Positions 19,163-36,847 of a stretch of DNA of 43,592 nucleotides are shown in pieces (the stretch's first letter is position 1; every line of letters starts with the position of its first letter). This DNA is from Akkermansia muciniphila (GTDB lineage Bacteria; Verrucomicrobiota; Kiritimatiellia; RFP12; UBA1067): the NCBI GenBank assembly GCA_945870145.1, contig CAMBQV010000005.1, positions 1-43,592 on the forward strand. Reading direction: 5' to 3'. Below the pieces are notes generated by a model. The model searched no databases and had not been told where the DNA came from. It worked only from the letters and a program-made list of their open reading frames with translations. The position numbers were made by a program, and so were the translations under genes.

Positions 19163-19489
19163 ATGCTTGAAGCATGCCATTTTTGGTTTAATGTCATTGA
19201 AGCAGGGATCTGGATTGCCATGGCAGGATGGTTCCTGTTTCTCGCATTACGAAGGCGGTCATCTTTAAAGAAGACGTTCCTCGTCTTCTCAGTGACACTC
19301 TTATTTTTCGGAATCTCGGACCTCATCGAAACCCAGACCGGAACGTGGTATAAACCTTTCAGCCTCTTTATGCTTAAGGCGGTGTGTGTTCTGTTCATCG
19401 CCGCTTGCCTGTTTGTATTCTTCCGAAACCGCGCAGAGTGCGAGCGCGTCATGAACGGAAAAGAAGATAATAAACCGAAAGCGAAATAG
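19163..19489 (+). CDS. Small membrane protein, unrecognised
   Basis: The 108-residue protein has three predicted transmembrane segments at about residues 10-30, 37-55 and 66-88, a conserved-looking loop SDLIETQTGTWYKP between the second and third, and a charged Lys-rich tail. I do not recognise a family. It starts at ATG 19163, directly downstream of the repeat cluster, and its stop is immediately followed by the ATG of a second small membrane protein, so they are likely translated together. The function is unknown; the pair may be accessory genes carried with the RAYT region. Confidence 0.6.
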   Translation: MLEACHFWFNVIEAGIWIAMAGWFLFLALRRRSSLKKTFLVFSVTLLFFGISDLIETQTGTWYKPFSLFMLKAVCVLFIAACLFVFFRNRAECERVMNGKEDNKPKAK

Positions 19490-19808: not shown

Positions 19809-20825
19809 CTAAACTCGAAGCGGAAGGCTGACTGGCTCGACCCGCAGGTCTCGCGCGGTACAGAATCCACCATCCTGGCAGAAACGCATCCTGCGAGCTC
19901 CTGTCTTTCGTTTTACACCGAAATGGGCGCGGTTTCGCTCGAAGACGGACTCCACGAAGGCCCTGCTACCGAAGGCCAGTCCATCTTTAAAATAGCGAAC
20001 GCGGCACCTCAGAAGTGCGGGCAGCGGCATCTTTCCATTACGTTCGATCACCTCGCTCACAACCTCGGGCGAGAATCCGATACGCTGCAGACATCCCACT
20101 TCATCACGATGCTCTTCGCCATGCGTGTAGAGGGATTTACGATAGGCGGCCAGCGCGTCTGACCAGGTCAACTCCTGCGAGCAACGGGAGAAGATTGACA
20201 GGATTCCCTGCCGTGCTACAGGAGACCCGCCACACGCTTCACCATAGCCACTCCAGCGATAGTCCGCAGGATCCTTGACGATCCCGGCACGCACGGGATT
20301 AAGGTCAATATAGGCCGCTATAACAGAAAGCGCCCGGCTTTCCCCCTCCACCAGTATACTGGCGTAGCGCCCTTCCCAGAGGGTTCCCACGCGCGAGTGG
20401 CGCCGATTGTACGAGATGGAGTAACATTGCTTGAGAAGCTTCATAAAAGGGCTGATGTCCCCCATACGCCGACGGAACCCCTCCTGCTCGCGTTCAGCGA
20501 GCAAGGTGAGGCCGTTCTTGCGCCACTCCGCCCAACGTTCCTTGCAACGGCTGGCTTCGAGCGTTCCATAAAACGCACGGATCCGCCTAATGAGTTCGGC
20601 CTCATCCAGCAAGGGCTGGACCGGCACGTCAAGCAGAAGATGAAAGTGATTCGAGAGAATCGCATACGTGAGAACCTTCACCCCAGAGAATTCCGCAGCC
20701 TTGCGCAGGATATGCCTGAAGATCTCCCGCTCGTCATCATCCATCTTAAAACTCCTGTCAACGATCCTGCTCGTGACATGGTAACACCCGACTCCCCCAT
20801 CCGCCTTAATTCTAGACTTTCTCAT
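19809..20825 (-). mobile_element. REP-associated tyrosine transposase (RAYT, Y1_Tnp family)
   Basis: The 338-residue protein is a HUH-type single-strand transposase of the TnpA_REP/RAYT group. It has GVGCYHVTSR at the N-terminus, the metal-binding SNHFHLLLDVP (His60, His62), and the tyrosine region CYSISYNRRHSRVGTLWEGRY, in which Tyr135 is the likely nucleophile. AAYIDLNPVRAGIV follows. The gene looks complete and possibly active. RAYTs usually do not move themselves but act on short palindromic repeats. Here such repeats are present on both sides: GGGGACAGAC to the left, and GTCTGTCCC copies plus a 21-bp palindrome to the right. The C-terminal extension beyond residue 200 is helical and basic, perhaps for DNA binding. 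Confidence 0.92.
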
Positions 20826-20845: not shown

Positions 20846-20966
20846 GCTAGTGTGTCCCTTTATTGTTCGGACTGCTAGTCTGTCCCCTTGTTGTTAAAAG
20901 AAGATTATCAAATTCATCCGGACAAGATGTCGCTTTGAAAGCGACATTTACAAATAGTCTGTCCCC
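20846..20966 (-). repeat. GCTAGTCTGTCCCC repeats upstream of the RAYT gene
   Basis: GCTAGTGTGTCCCTTTATTGTT at 20846 and GCTAGTCTGTCCCCTTGTTGTT at 20874 are imperfect direct repeats with a 28-bp period. TAGTCTGTCCCC recurs at 20955-20966, and a decayed AATATGTCCTG lies near 20981. They are reverse complements of the repeats at 19013-19135, so the RAYT gene sits between inverted copies. Confidence 0.7.
20927..20947. repeat. 21-bp perfect palindrome, candidate REP hairpin
   Basis: ATGTCGCTTT pairs with AAAGCGACAT around a single central G. It is followed by TTACAAATAG rather than a T run, so it is unlikely to be a terminator. Its position next to the RAYT gene and its repeats makes it a candidate for the hairpin the transposase recognises. 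Confidence 0.6.
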
Positions 20967-21071
20967 ATATAAAAGGCACTAATATGTCCTGTTTAATTTT
21001 GCCTTGCTTTGCAGGTCAAAAAGCGCAAAAATGACGACATTGTTGGATCAATACCCAGCACATATCAGCAT

Positions 21072-21086
21072 AATATGTCTGTCCCT
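21072..21086 (-). repeat. ATATGTCTGTCCC repeat copy
   Basis: AATATGTCTGTCCCTC at about 21072-21086 is a further copy of the GTCTGTCCC repeat. It lies 24 bp before the start of the secreted protein gene, in its leader. Confidence 0.5.
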
Positions 21087-21109
21087 CTGTCGTATTATGG
21101 AGAACCTAT

Positions 21110-21727
21110 ATGAAACGAGCTGCGTGCCTTATTGTTGGAGTCTTTCTCACGTTCATATGTCTTGCGGATCCATCAAGACCCTTCGGAACAAATCTTCTGT
21201 CTAATGTTGACAACCTAGACATCAAAGCCGATCAATGGAGCATTACAAATGGTGTTCTTACCAAGAATTCCTTGCTCTACCAAGGCGACAAGCTATTAGT
21301 CGTGAAGGCCTCAGTAGTGGAAGTTCCGATTTGGTATGTACTGACCTGTAGCCTGACGAATGTTCAGAAGCGAAGTGGTCCCCTTCCAGAGGCTGGACTG
21401 ATCTTTGGATACGTTGACGACAAGAACTATTGGAGTGTTACAATAGGTGGAGAACAAACAGCCCCAATTCTGAAGCTTACTCAAGTTGCAGGCGGAAGGG
21501 TTGTCACCGAAAAACGTGTTCCATTCGTAATGAAGGCTGATCAAGAGGAAGTTCAACTACGGGTTGAGGTTCATCACCAGATCTGGGTGAAGGCCCACGT
21601 AAACAACTCAAAAGAACTCATTCATAATGTCTCAGGAGGAATTACACAAGGCAGAATTGGACTTGCTTTGACATCAGGTGCTTGTGATTTCTCAAGGGGT
21701 AAAATCTCAGGAATTGGAAAGCATTGA
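21110..21727 (+). CDS. Secreted beta-sandwich-like protein, unrecognised
   Basis: The 205-residue protein starts with a signal peptide (Arg/Lys then hydrophobic residues 6-19, cleavage likely after CLA). The mature part is all-beta in appearance, with DQWSITNGVLTKN, LIFGYVDDKNYWSVTIGGE and GRIGLALTSGACDFSRGKI. This pattern resembles concanavalin A-like/DUF1080-type sandwich domains, which in PVC bacteria often bind or cleave sugars. No catalytic acidic pair is recognised, so it may only bind ligand. The start has GGAG 8 bases upstream. The gene is somewhat richer in A+T than the flanking housekeeping genes and is bracketed by GTCTGTCCC repeats at 21072 and 21734, which hints at later acquisition. 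Confidence 0.65.
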   Translation: MKRAACLIVGVFLTFICLADPSRPFGTNLLSNVDNLDIKADQWSITNGVLTKNSLLYQGDKLLVVKASVVEVPIWYVLTCSLTNVQKRSGPLPEAGLIFGYVDDKNYWSVTIGGEQTAPILKLTQVAGGRVVTEKRVPFVMKADQEEVQLRVEVHHQIWVKAHVNNSKELIHNVSGGITQGRIGLALTSGACDFSRGKISGIGKH

Positions 21728-21733
21728 GGAAGG

Positions 21734-21746
21734 AATGTCTGTCCCT
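21734..21746 (-). repeat. AATGTCTGTCCCT repeat copy
   Basis: AATGTCTGTCCCTATATG begins at 21734, seven bases after the stop of the secreted protein gene. It matches the copies at 20955 and 21072 and, with the latter, brackets that gene in direct orientation. Confidence 0.5.
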
Positions 21747-21769
21747 ATATGTCAAACAAAGAAATAATT

Positions 21770-21798
21770 TTGAACTTCCCAGCCTCTGGGAGGTTCAA
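21770..21798 (+). promoter_or_regulatory. Hairpin sequestering the ribosome-binding site of the ACP-like gene
   Basis: TTGAAC-T-TCCCAG (21770-21782) can pair along its whole length with CTGGGA-G-GTTCAA (21786-21798) around a CCT loop. This gives 13 pairs, one of them U-G. The right arm contains the Shine-Dalgarno GGGAGG (21788-21793) and ends on the A of the start codon. Such a structure would hide the ribosome-binding site when folded. It could be a translational switch, or an unrelated palindromic element that landed at the start site. Confidence 0.6.
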
Positions 21799-22121
21799 TG
21801 AAATTGTCTGATATTTTCAAGCCGGATCCAAAACATCAGAAAGTGTTTGAGCATTTGGCACGCCAGTATTTTCCGAAGTACAGTTGCGAAATGACTTGGA
21901 GGGTCCTGGCAATAGTGAGCGAGCAGTTGGGCGTCAAGCCAGAACAACTCCGTCCGGAGACACTGTTCGTCCGAGACCTTAACGCCAACGACCTCGACCC
22001 TGTGGAGCTTATTATGGCGATTGAGCAGGAGTTCAACTTCAAGATTCCTAGACAAGAGGCCGAGAATCTTTTGACAGTGTCGCATCTTATTGATTACGTA
22101 GAGCGGAAAAATGTCCACTGA
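21798..22121 (+). CDS. Acyl-carrier-protein-like protein lacking the phosphopantetheine serine
   Basis: Residues 30-107 of this 107-residue protein match an acyl carrier protein: a first helix, then the loop LRPETLFVRDLNANDLDPVELIMAIEQEFNFKIP split across helix II, and TVSHLIDYV at the end. In true ACPs the loop reads D-S-L and the serine carries 4'-phosphopantetheine. Here the codons give N-D-L, with Asp65 at the serine position. It therefore cannot be a conventional carrier. There is an N-terminal extension of about 25 residues. Known non-carrier ACP paralogues act as binding or regulatory subunits, so that is a possible role. The start is preceded by GGGAGG inside a strong hairpin. No fatty-acid or polyketide genes are near. 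Confidence 0.8.
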   Translation: MKLSDIFKPDPKHQKVFEHLARQYFPKYSCEMTWRVLAIVSEQLGVKPEQLRPETLFVRDLNANDLDPVELIMAIEQEFNFKIPRQEAENLLTVSHLIDYVERKNVH

Positions 22122-22203
22122 TCCGATGAGTCAAACGGAATTCCGCCCCGCCAGCTATTTTGAACCCGTAAAACAAAGTGCTGGAGAATTGAAAGAAAAG
22201 TGA
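22111..22203 (+). CDS. Possible 30-residue small ORF linking ACP-like and membrane protein genes
   Basis: An ORF of 30 codons runs from ATG 22111 (or 25 codons from ATG 22126) to TGA 22203. It overlaps the end of the ACP-like gene by 11 nt, and its stop overlaps the GTG start of the next gene (GTGA at 22200-22203). The product is polar (MSQTEFRPASYFEPVK...). The nested overlaps suggest coupled translation, but there is no strong ribosome-binding site. It could be chance. Confidence 0.25.
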   Translation: MSTDPMSQTEFRPASYFEPVKQSAGELKEK

Positions 22204-22475
22204 TCTCATTCAACTTGCCGAATAAACCCGTCACGGCCATTTTCTTTGCGATTGCTTATTACGCAATGGCCGCCGGCTGCATCTTTGGATTCTTCGCGCT
22301 CCCGAAATGCGATCATTTTACACTCAACTCTGTCCTCTATCGACCAGGTGATCCAGGATATGATGAGGCGTTGCTAGTGATGAGAGTTCTCTGTGGAGTC
22401 CTTGCCCTGGCAACAACAGGAGTTGGCGTATGGCTCACGCGTATCGCCCGAAAATTAGCCACCGACCGCGTTTAG
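22200..22475 (+). CDS. Small two-helix membrane protein, unrecognised
   Basis: The 91-residue protein has transmembrane segments at about residues 11-33 and 58-80 with a loop containing LPKCDHFTLNSVLYRPGDPGYDEA. The start is GTG at 22200 with AAAGAAAA upstream, not a strong Shine-Dalgarno sequence. It is the last + strand gene before the convergent cobalamin operon, whose last gene ends 26 bp away. The family and function are unknown; context groups it with the ACP-like gene. Confidence 0.5.
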   Translation: MISFNLPNKPVTAIFFAIAYYAMAAGCIFGFFALPKCDHFTLNSVLYRPGDPGYDEALLVMRVLCGVLALATTGVGVWLTRIARKLATDRV

Positions 22476-22501
22476 TTTTTCGCGCTCGCTTCGGTTATTG
22501 A

Positions 22502-23242
22502 CTACCTCGGCCCGAGCGCATGCACCAGTGAATCCACGGACGCGTAACCGGATGCCGGACGTTTCGGTCGTTCGATGACCACGACCTCGCACCCGCTCTG
22601 GCGAGCAGCTTTAATCTTGGTGTCCACACCCCCTGCCTCACCGCTGTCCTTGGTCACAAGCACACCAAAGCCTTTCATATGGCTCCTGTTTTCTTCAACT
22701 GTGAAGGGGCCGTCAGCGCAGAGGATTTCGCGCTCGCTCAATCCCGCATCATGGCAGGCAGCCACAGAGTCAGGGTGATTCAATACACGCGCCTTCAGCG
22801 CAATGCCATAGCTACGCGCCTCAGTAATATAGGGTGCAAGATTGCGCACGCCAATGGTCAGGAAGACGGGCATGCCAAAGGAGAATGCCTGCTTCGCGGC
22901 AGACTGATGATCCGGGACGCGGTATACCGCCTCGACACTTGCACAGGGTCGCTCATAGGCCAGATAGCGGACGCCAGTCGCCTGACACGCCTTGTAAGCA
23001 TTCTGACTGACAGCCTCGGCGTAGGGATGCGTCGCATCCACGACAGCAGTTATCTTTTCATCGCGGATAAGATGCTCAATCCCCTGCTCATCCAGCATCC
23101 CGCACCGCACACGCACATGAGCGGGCATCTGTCCACGGGAAGCCATCGTGGTGGCCGCTGAGAGCAAGACCTCCCAGCCCTGTTTCACCAGCGCCTGGGC
23201 GATCTGTACTGTCTCGCTTGTTCCACCGAGCAACAAAATCAT
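22502..23242 (-). CDS. cbiJ: Cobalt-precorrin-6A reductase (CbiJ/CobK)
   Basis: The 246-residue protein starts with LLLGGTSETVQIA and has VVDATHPYAEAVSQNA and YERP, the landmarks of precorrin-6x reductases. It reduces the macrocycle of (cobalt-)precorrin-6A with a pyridine nucleotide during corrin ring synthesis. The genes around it are of the anaerobic (cobalt-early) type, so CbiJ is the appropriate name. It is the last gene of the operon, and its start overlaps the cbiH stop by 4 nt. Length and motifs are typical. Confidence 0.92.
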   Translation of the reverse strand: MILLLGGTSETVQIAQALVKQGWEVLLSAATTMASRGQMPAHVRVRCGMLDEQGIEHLIRDEKITAVVDATHPYAEAVSQNAYKACQATGVRYLAYERPCASVEAVYRVPDHQSAAKQAFSFGMPVFLTIGVRNLAPYITEARSYGIALKARVLNHPDSVAACHDAGLSEREILCADGPFTVEENRSHMKGFGVLVTKDSGEAGGVDTKIKAARQSGCEVVVIERPKRPASGYASVDSLVHALGPR

Positions 23243-24722: not shown

Positions 24723-24945
24723 CCTTCATTGCTCCATCTGTACCCTTCATTGCCATGCGCTTTGCATAATCAGAACGACGCCTCAACGCCTCATCAACAG
24801 AGAGATAGATCACCTTCTTTTGACTCCAATCATAAATTGGAACCTGAAGACCTGTAACACGATACGCTTCTGTTGCCTTCCATGTCGCCTCGTCCATGGC
24901 CTCGATGACATTTTTCGTTTCTTCGGATAATTCAACTTTTTTCAT
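24715..24945 (-). CDS. 76-residue ORF, possible partner of the zeta-like kinase domain
   Basis: A small charged protein: N-terminal MKKVELSEETKNVIEAMDEATWKATEAYR (helical, in pieces), then LQVPIYDWSQKKVIYLSVDEALRR, a beta-like segment followed by a helix. This layout, helix then 'VP.Y.W..KKV..L..DE', resembles small ORFs I have seen adjacent to zeta-type P-loop kinase genes and presumed to be antitoxins. That identification is from memory and unverified. Its ATG overlaps the stop of the CbiF-kinase fusion by 4 nt, and it overlaps cbiG by 8 nt, so it is fully embedded in the cobalamin operon. It is not a known corrin enzyme. Confidence 0.7.
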   Translation of the reverse strand: MKKVELSEETKNVIEAMDEATWKATEAYRVTGLQVPIYDWSQKKVIYLSVDEALRRRSDYAKRMAMKGTDGAMKDV

Positions 24946-26309
24946 AGGCCTATATCCTTTCGGATAATCGCGAACCGATCTTCATCGGGAATCGACTCAT
25001 TCCCGTTTCGTTCATATACTAAACACGTCTGTGACTCCGAATTATCAAACACCCTTAACGTATCAACGAATGACAAATAACAGGAGAGGTTTTCTCGTGA
25101 CCGCGCATATCGCCTCCGAACATCCTCATCCGGGACATGGTGTCCGCCCGCTTGGACACGCTGAAGGATACGGGAAACCAACAGATCGCTAGCAGGCGCC
25201 CAAAGATAGTACAGGTTAATCCGATACCCTTGCTCCTTCATACGGCGGATATGATTTATATATCCCATGCCGGACAACGTCGTCTCAAAGGCAAAATCAA
25301 CGCGCTGTTTAGAGAGCTCACCAATCCGCTCCAACACCAGTTTGCCGGCCTTTAAGGCGACATGCTGAGGGTTGAAAGGAGAGAGGCCCAAGGCGATCAA
25401 GTCCGGATTGACAAATTCGCAGCAGCCAGCATAACGTGGCAGATACTGAATCGCAAAAGTCGATTTTCCCGAACCATTCGGGCCAGCAACGATATGGCAC
25501 GTCGGGGCGCCTTCATACAACACGGGTGCCTCTTTAATTGTTGTCTCTTGCTCTTGCACCCCGTCTTTCACCTGCCTGTACCCATGTGCGAATTCGGGGG
25601 CATACAGACGCGACTGGGCGCCGGTGGAAGCGCGACGGACAATGAAGAGCGCGGTCTTCTCAATACCCTCTGCGCGAATTTTCTCTGCGATGTCGGCAAG
25701 CGTCCCCTGGACAATCTTCTGATCGGACCAAGAGGCGTGGAAGACCACGGCGGCTGGGCACTCCTTGCCATAATACTTCGCGAGGAGCGGCGCATGTTCA
25801 GCAATCGCATGAGCGGAGAGGAAGACGCAGAGCGTGGCACCGGTCTTTGCGAAATTTTCGAGCGCCTCAGCTTCTGGCATCGGTGTCCGGCCGGGCGTGC
25901 GGGTCAGGACGATACTCTGGGCGACCTCGGGGACAGTGAGTTCCCAGCCTAGCGCAGCTGCAGAGGCCTGAAAGGCACTGACCCCGGGAACCACTTCATA
26001 TTCAATGCCCAGCTTTTCAAGGTCGCTGATCTGCTCGCCAATGGCTCCGTAAATTGAGGGGTCGCCAGTATGCAGGCGCACCACATCGATTCCACGCTTC
26101 TGAGCATCTTGGAAAAGGGCGATCACTTCGGGATGCGACAACGACGCGGAGTCGTACTTCTCAGCCTCAGGGGCGATCTTTGCAAGAACAGCAGGACTGA
26201 CAAGCGAGCCTGCATAGATACAGACTTTGCACGTTACAACTAAGCGCAACGCCTTGACGGTCAGCAACTCCGGATCTCCAGGTCCGGCCCCTACAAAATA
26301 GATTTTCAT
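24942..26309 (-). CDS. cbiF: CbiF cobalt-precorrin-4 C11-methyltransferase fused to a zeta-toxin-like kinase
   Basis: The 455-residue frame encodes two complete domains. Residues 1 to about 245 are CbiF/CobM: VGAGPGDPELLTVKA, IYAGSLV, HTGDPSIYGAI, PGVSAFQASAAALG and the usual end LYAPEFAHGYR. Residues about 246-267 are a polar linker. Residues 268-455 are a zeta-toxin/ZTL-type P-loop kinase: Walker A GPNGSGKST (276-284), NPDLIALGLSPF (301-312), FETTLSG (341-347), GGHHVPDEDVRRRY (388-401) and VFDNS. The CbiF part methylates C11 of cobalt-precorrin-4. Zeta kinases typically phosphorylate UDP-N-acetyl sugars, but this substrate is unknown. No stop or frameshift separates the halves. A GTG at 25523 with AAAGAGG ahead could start the kinase alone. 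It overlaps cbiL and orf76 by 4 nt each. Confidence 0.92.
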   Translation of the reverse strand: MKIYFVGAGPGDPELLTVKALRLVVTCKVCIYAGSLVSPAVLAKIAPEAEKYDSASLSHPEVIALFQDAQKRGIDVVRLHTGDPSIYGAIGEQISDLEKLGIEYEVVPGVSAFQASAAALGWELTVPEVAQSIVLTRTPGRTPMPEAEALENFAKTGATLCVFLSAHAIAEHAPLLAKYYGKECPAAVVFHASWSDQKIVQGTLADIAEKIRAEGIEKTALFIVRRASTGAQSRLYAPEFAHGYRQVKDGVQEQETTIKEAPVLYEGAPTCHIVAGPNGSGKSTFAIQYLPRYAGCCEFVNPDLIALGLSPFNPQHVALKAGKLVLERIGELSKQRVDFAFETTLSGMGYINHIRRMKEQGYRINLYYLWAPASDLLVSRILQRVQAGGHHVPDEDVRRRYARSRENLSCYLSFVDTLRVFDNSESQTCLVYERNGNESIPDEDRFAIIRKDIGL

Positions 26310-36817: not shown

Positions 36818-36847
36818 AAAAAACGGCAGGCGAACCTGCCGTTTTTT
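36818..36847 (-). terminator. Intrinsic terminator after rpoC (symmetrical)
   Basis: CGGCAGG and CCTGCCG form a 7-bp GC-rich stem around a CGAA tetraloop, flanked by AAAAAA on one side and TTTTTT on the other. On the minus strand it lies 12 bp after the rpoC stop and ends in a U tract. The symmetric A/T tracts mean it could also act on the opposite strand. Confidence 0.88.

Follow-up and report, generated by a model that had tools for sequence, protein, structure and literature searches.

A thirteen-pair hairpin occluding the ribosome-binding site of an ACP-like gene, with possible opening by upstream ribosomes

Overview

The hairpin at 21770-21798 is predicted to be a cis-acting RNA structure that occludes the ribosome-binding site of an ACP-like gene in the window, the whole 43,592-nucleotide stretch of Akkermansia muciniphila DNA analyzed here. 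The best explanation, which we put forward tentatively, is that the hairpin is opened by upstream ribosomes. It is supported by a rare perfect stem lying exactly on the ribosome-binding site, an exceptional opening cost, a lineage that uses Shine-Dalgarno sequences and the likely start at 21798.

Structure of the hairpin

The hairpin consists of three parts.

21770..21782, + strand, left arm, UUGAACUUCCCAG (from the sequence and the leader fold)
21783..21785, + strand, loop, CCU (from the sequence and the leader fold)
21786..21798, + strand, right arm, CUGGGAGGUUCAA, with GGGAGG at 21788-21793 and the A of AUG as its last base (from the sequence and folding)

The DNA of the element is TTGAACTTCCCAG-CCT-CTGGGAGGTTCAA. 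The arms form 13 consecutive pairs with a single U-G (21776-21792), and the coordinates of the original prediction, which described pairing along the whole length with one U-G, are exact. The RNA folding that it proposed as a check was run on the 131-nt leader and on the isolated hairpin. The minimum-energy fold of the leader contains the full stem of 13 pairs, and the leader region is more stable than its shuffled versions (z -2.2). The isolated hairpin has an energy of -18.6 kcal/mol at 37 C and is drawn with 12 pairs because the terminal U-A frays. The presence of GGGAGG in the right arm and the end of this arm on the A of AUG are read directly in the sequence; base 21798 is both the 3' end of the arm and the first base of the ATG of ORF 21798-22121. 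The hairpin had also been said to cover the Shine-Dalgarno sequence and the start codon. The first lies wholly inside the helix, while only one of the three bases of the second (A) is inside, with U and G outside.

Sequestration of the ribosome-binding site

In dinucleotide shuffles of the window, 0.4 stems of at least 13 pairs are expected per strand, and only 0.025 per strand when no more than one G-U pair is allowed and the loop spans 3-8. Base rates for the genome were taken from a 331-kb sample, which contains about 12 comparable hairpins, some with terminator-like A/U tracts and some intragenic. Other strong hairpins with neither a U-tail nor an apparent tie to starts are present in the genome, and none of the other hairpins listed from the sample overlaps a predicted ORF start. 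Opening the region from -15 to +3 of the ACP-like gene start costs 20.4 kcal/mol, whereas 91 other starts in this genome, all belonging to long ORFs with a Shine-Dalgarno sequence, average 6.1 ± 2.8 kcal/mol (maximum 13.6); none of the 91 reaches 20.4. The cost stays at 19-22 kcal/mol whatever context is folded. The rarity in shuffles, the lack of any other listed hairpin on an ORF start and an opening cost above those of all 91 starts make both the position and the strength of the hairpin exceptional. Shine-Dalgarno sequences accompany 107 of the 109 ACP starts in relatives, indicating that this lineage uses them.

When transcription begins upstream of about 21771, the ACP-like gene's Shine-Dalgarno sequence is predicted to be paired nearly always, and independent 30S binding should therefore be strongly inhibited. 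The strong sequestration claimed originally is thus borne out by folding and by the opening cost relative to other starts of the genome, and on computation alone the hairpin should strongly reduce independent initiation.

The ACP-like gene and its start

21798..22121, + strand, ACP-like gene, 107 aa; PP-binding domain at residues 35-101, Asp65 at the position of the phosphopantetheine serine, 30-residue N-terminal extension with a predicted helix at 11-24

The protein scores above the NCBIfam acyl carrier protein and Pfam PP-binding cut-offs (TIGR00517, 80.3 bits against 70.45; PF00550, 35 against 20.8), so the name ACP-like holds, with the qualification that the attachment serine is missing. 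The serine of the DSL motif is replaced by Asp65, giving DLNAND65LD where relatives have DLGADSLD; the other relatives listed read DSL at the attachment site. An AlphaFold model from the single sequence, without alignment, has a mean pLDDT of 84.8 and an ACP-like helix order. It places a confident helix at residues 11-24 ahead of the ACP-like helices, and the N-terminal extension therefore looks like real protein. Upstream, a stop at 21771 closes the reading frame, which from there to 21798 contains no ATG, GTG or TTG. Together with the folding of the extension as a helix, this makes 21798 the likely real start of the gene. By eye, no Shine-Dalgarno sequence precedes the next in-frame ATG (codon 32, 21891), and a start there would truncate the first ACP helix. 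A canonical ACP gene elsewhere in the genome (G000:C23) is 47% identical and starts without such a stem.

Proposed opening by upstream ribosomes

Two reading frames lie in front of the hairpin.

21110..21727, + strand, upstream ORF of 205 aa without a match to any family, ending 42 nt ahead of the hairpin and 70 nt ahead of the AUG
21735..21767, + strand, candidate leader ORF, 10 codons (MSVPICQTKK, then TAA), preceded by GAGGAAGGA

In the proposed mechanism, the structure would block independent initiation at the ACP-like gene, which would be translated only while pairing of the left arm is prevented. The left arm would most likely be kept open by a ribosome coming from upstream, through translational coupling or attenuation. 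The stop of the upstream ORF, at 42 nt, is too distant for its terminating ribosome to reach the left arm. The nearest candidate is the leader ORF, which ends 2 nt short of the left arm and is preceded by the Shine-Dalgarno-like GAGGAAGGA; a ribosome terminating there would cover about 8 nt of the arm. When such a ribosome is simulated by forcing the covered bases to be unpaired, the opening cost falls from 18.6 to 11.0 kcal/mol (ribosome edge at 21777) or to 8.9 kcal/mol (edge at 21779). A cost of about 9-11 kcal/mol is inside the range of other genes. Opening of the hairpin by upstream ribosomes, as suggested, is possible, though a comparable ORF occurs in about 6% of shuffled leaders. The ATG of the leader ORF also falls within the dispersed TGTCTGTCCC motif. 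The leader-ORF step is the weakest link of the mechanism; the same logic would apply to another upstream ribosome or to a transcript starting inside the left arm.

Distribution and the lineage-specific segment

Among the genomes searched, the hairpin and the ACP-like gene are found in one only. No orthologue of either was found in 115 genomes of the family or, by pattern, in 334-346 genomes of the class and 387 of the phylum. Collections of genomes, viruses and plasmids likewise gave no orthologous leader. The best matches in the 115 family genomes are, in all the sequences that were read, canonical DSL ACPs and not orthologues. Compared with 20 relatives, the DNA of the locus has no homology except short ACP-like stretches. 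The leaders of 109 paralogous or canonical ACP genes, which are not orthologues, contain no stem longer than 10 pairs. Several candidates were discarded. Pattern matches in three genomes (G016, G017 and G203) are unrelated proteins, and a partial match in the congener (G003:C378) is a canonical ACP cut by the contig end. In G465, another genome of the phylum, a different serine-less ACP-like protein is encoded; its start resembles a signal peptide, and it is apparently exported.

A 1.56-kb segment (20973-22532) carries the hairpin together with the ACP-like gene and two small ORFs; it is absent from congener G003 at both flank sites. The flank at 15026-20972 matches G003:C118 (87.6 and 85.5%), and that at 22533-25400 matches G003:C157 (87%; 90% over cobK). 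In G003 the two flanks sit on different contigs, and the ORF at window 19163-19489 is represented there by a shorter copy directly adjoining cobK. Window 24942-26309 holds a frame that, judged by eye from the translation, apparently fuses a precorrin methyltransferase (CobM-like) with a zeta-toxin-like P-loop kinase domain.

The main and serious rival starts from this distribution. It takes the hairpin as a neutral, one-off palindrome on the border of a young segment, specific to the lineage and rich in repeats, beside a REP-type transposase, with the ACP-like gene weakly expressed or decaying, so that the hairpin lowers expression without being regulatory. The missing segment between flanks that are about 85-90% identical in the congener and the lack of an orthologue in the genomes searched are consistent with it, as are the change of the attachment serine to aspartate, the dispersed TGTCTGTCCC motif in the leader and the further non-terminator hairpins of the genome. 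Against it, the ACP-like frame is intact, scores above the ACP cut-offs and has a confident single-sequence fold. The stem is free of mismatches, which a decaying palindrome would soon gain, and it is placed exactly on the ribosome-binding site. We regard this rival as rather unlikely.

Repeats and palindromes around the locus

The dispersed motif (A)TGTCTGTCCC(C) occurs at 32 sites in the genome, namely window 19024, 19093, 19118, 21076 and 21736 and 27 others. It is often followed by YTTRT or TATATG, and it clusters around the RAYT-type transposase gene at 19809-20825 and near other palindromes of the genome. A hairpin at window 20925-20949, AGATGTCGCTTTGAAAGCGACATTT, upstream of the RAYT gene, is identical in the congener, which suggests that it is part of the transposase unit. 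Recurring REP-like hairpins, such as TTTCCAGTCCGTGRTTCAACGGGTTGGAAA and AGAACAGGCATCCTGCCTGTTTT, are seen near the TGTCTGTCCC motif in the genome sample (G000, L121-L140). A perfect 15-pair palindrome without a U-tract, TCAAATTCTCTTCCCGGCGGGAAGAGAATTTGA, overlaps the end of a reading frame at L147:17707-17739 (G000:C27). The hairpin at 21770-21798 does not belong to a repeat family, because it is single-copy in the genome with up to 3 mismatches allowed; the TGTCTGTCCC motif recurs without this hairpin beside it.

Operator, terminator and RNA-structure alternatives

The same symmetry could serve at the DNA level, as a 29-bp palindromic operator for a dimeric regulator of ACP-like gene transcription, with a transcript starting in or beyond the left arm and the mRNA then lacking an intact hairpin. 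The two halves are almost perfectly symmetric about a 3-bp spacer, the A/T-rich stretch AATAAT (21763-21768) comes immediately before them, and in a transcript from 21779 or later the opening cost would be in the normal range, at about 7 kcal/mol or less. Set against these features, the palindrome occurs only once in the genome even with up to 3 mismatches allowed, no regulator gene stands beside it, and a promoter scan finds no site at it. The asymmetric position is a mismatch in the DNA symmetry and pairs (U-G) only as RNA, so the RNA reading is slightly favored. An operator is improbable.

The hairpin begins 42 nt past the stop codon of the upstream ORF (21110-21727) and its stem is strong, as expected for a terminator or a 3'-end stabilizer of that ORF whose overlap with the next start is accidental. 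It is not a canonical terminator because it has no U-tract: the tail is TGAAATTG, T fills 3 of the first 8 positions past the stem, and a terminator scan does not call it. The same genome uses canonical terminators composed of A-tract, stem and U-tract, for example at 36818-36847, and termination at this stem would cut off the very gene whose ribosome-binding site it holds. This explanation is highly improbable.

The loop and the Shine-Dalgarno sequence also have a distant partner.

21382..21396, + strand, CCUUCCAGAGGCUGG, inside the upstream ORF; 15 consecutive pairs (one G-U) with 21779-21793, the loop and Shine-Dalgarno sequence; alternative sequestering partner

In 150 shuffles of the upstream region, no complementarity as long as 15 nt arises, a result whose significance is tentative because the match was noticed after the fact. 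The long helix competes with the local hairpin, and its probability ranges from 0 to 1 depending on the stretch folded. Whichever stretch is folded, the Shine-Dalgarno sequence remains paired and the opening cost is 19-22 kcal/mol. The long helix gives no switch alone; the ribosome-binding site is hidden either way. A speculative extension, to which we give only a slim chance, is a double lock in which the Shine-Dalgarno sequence would be held by the 13-pair hairpin or the 15-pair helix and freed only by ribosomes traversing the upstream ORF and then the leader ORF. If true, the output of the serine-less ACP-like protein would be strictly tied to translation of its neighbor.

An RNA thermometer, in which heating would open the hairpin and free the Shine-Dalgarno sequence, is hardly credible: the layout, with this sequence and part of the AUG in one helix, is right, but the Shine-Dalgarno bases are predicted to stay over 98% paired throughout the range of 10 to 75 C, the helix has no mismatch or bulge, unlike ROSE-type thermometers (PMC11342760), no Rfam thermometer matches and the ACP-like gene is not a heat-shock gene. 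Given the predicted closure up to 75 C, the hairpin is not a simple thermometer, and opening by temperature, one of the routes originally suggested, is not supported. Opening by a ligand finds no support either, as no Rfam family reaches its threshold; a riboswitch or other known RNA family was rejected with none near threshold.

Comparison with known systems

Structures that occlude a ribosome-binding site and are opened by upstream ribosomes are well documented, as in phage f1 VII/IX and MS2 coat/lysis (reviewed in PMC12548453). As in translational coupling by RNA unfolding (PMC12548453), the Shine-Dalgarno sequence here is in a stable stem with its 5' arm toward the upstream frame. In contrast to f1 VII/IX and MS2 coat/lysis, the upstream gene ends 42 nt before the stem, and only the candidate 10-codon ORF reaches it. 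Leader-peptide translation attenuation of the erm/tlrB type is also similar, with a short leader ORF (9 residues in B. subtilis tlrB, 10 codons here) just before a hairpin that sequesters the Shine-Dalgarno sequence (PMC6851288). However, the macrolide arrest motif of that type is R/K-X-R/K (PMC6851288), whereas the candidate peptide has the C-terminus QTKK and lacks both this and other known stalling motifs; moreover, the gene behind the hairpin is no resistance gene, and no conserved counterpart was found among the genomes searched.

ROSE-like and other thermometers with a Shine-Dalgarno helix share the position of the helix adjoining the start. ROSE-type elements have imperfect pairing with a bulged G (PMC11342760), whereas here the helix is perfect, is predicted not to melt and shows neither a ROSE motif nor a bulged G, and it has no match in Rfam. 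REP elements of RAYT transposases share a palindrome of 20-40 bp, and a RAYT gene (19809-20825) lies 1 kb away. They are multi-copy by definition (PMC3733652), unlike this hairpin, which is present once and has no tag motif in common with other hairpins of the genome.

The hairpin is a good single instance of a known and ordinary kind, the RBS-occluding structure. It opens no general question, because it is restricted to one genome among those searched. If it works as proposed, it would be a further example of translation that depends on ribosomes arriving from upstream, here in an uncultured bacterium represented by a draft assembly, and would place an ACP-like protein unable to carry phosphopantetheine under tight control.
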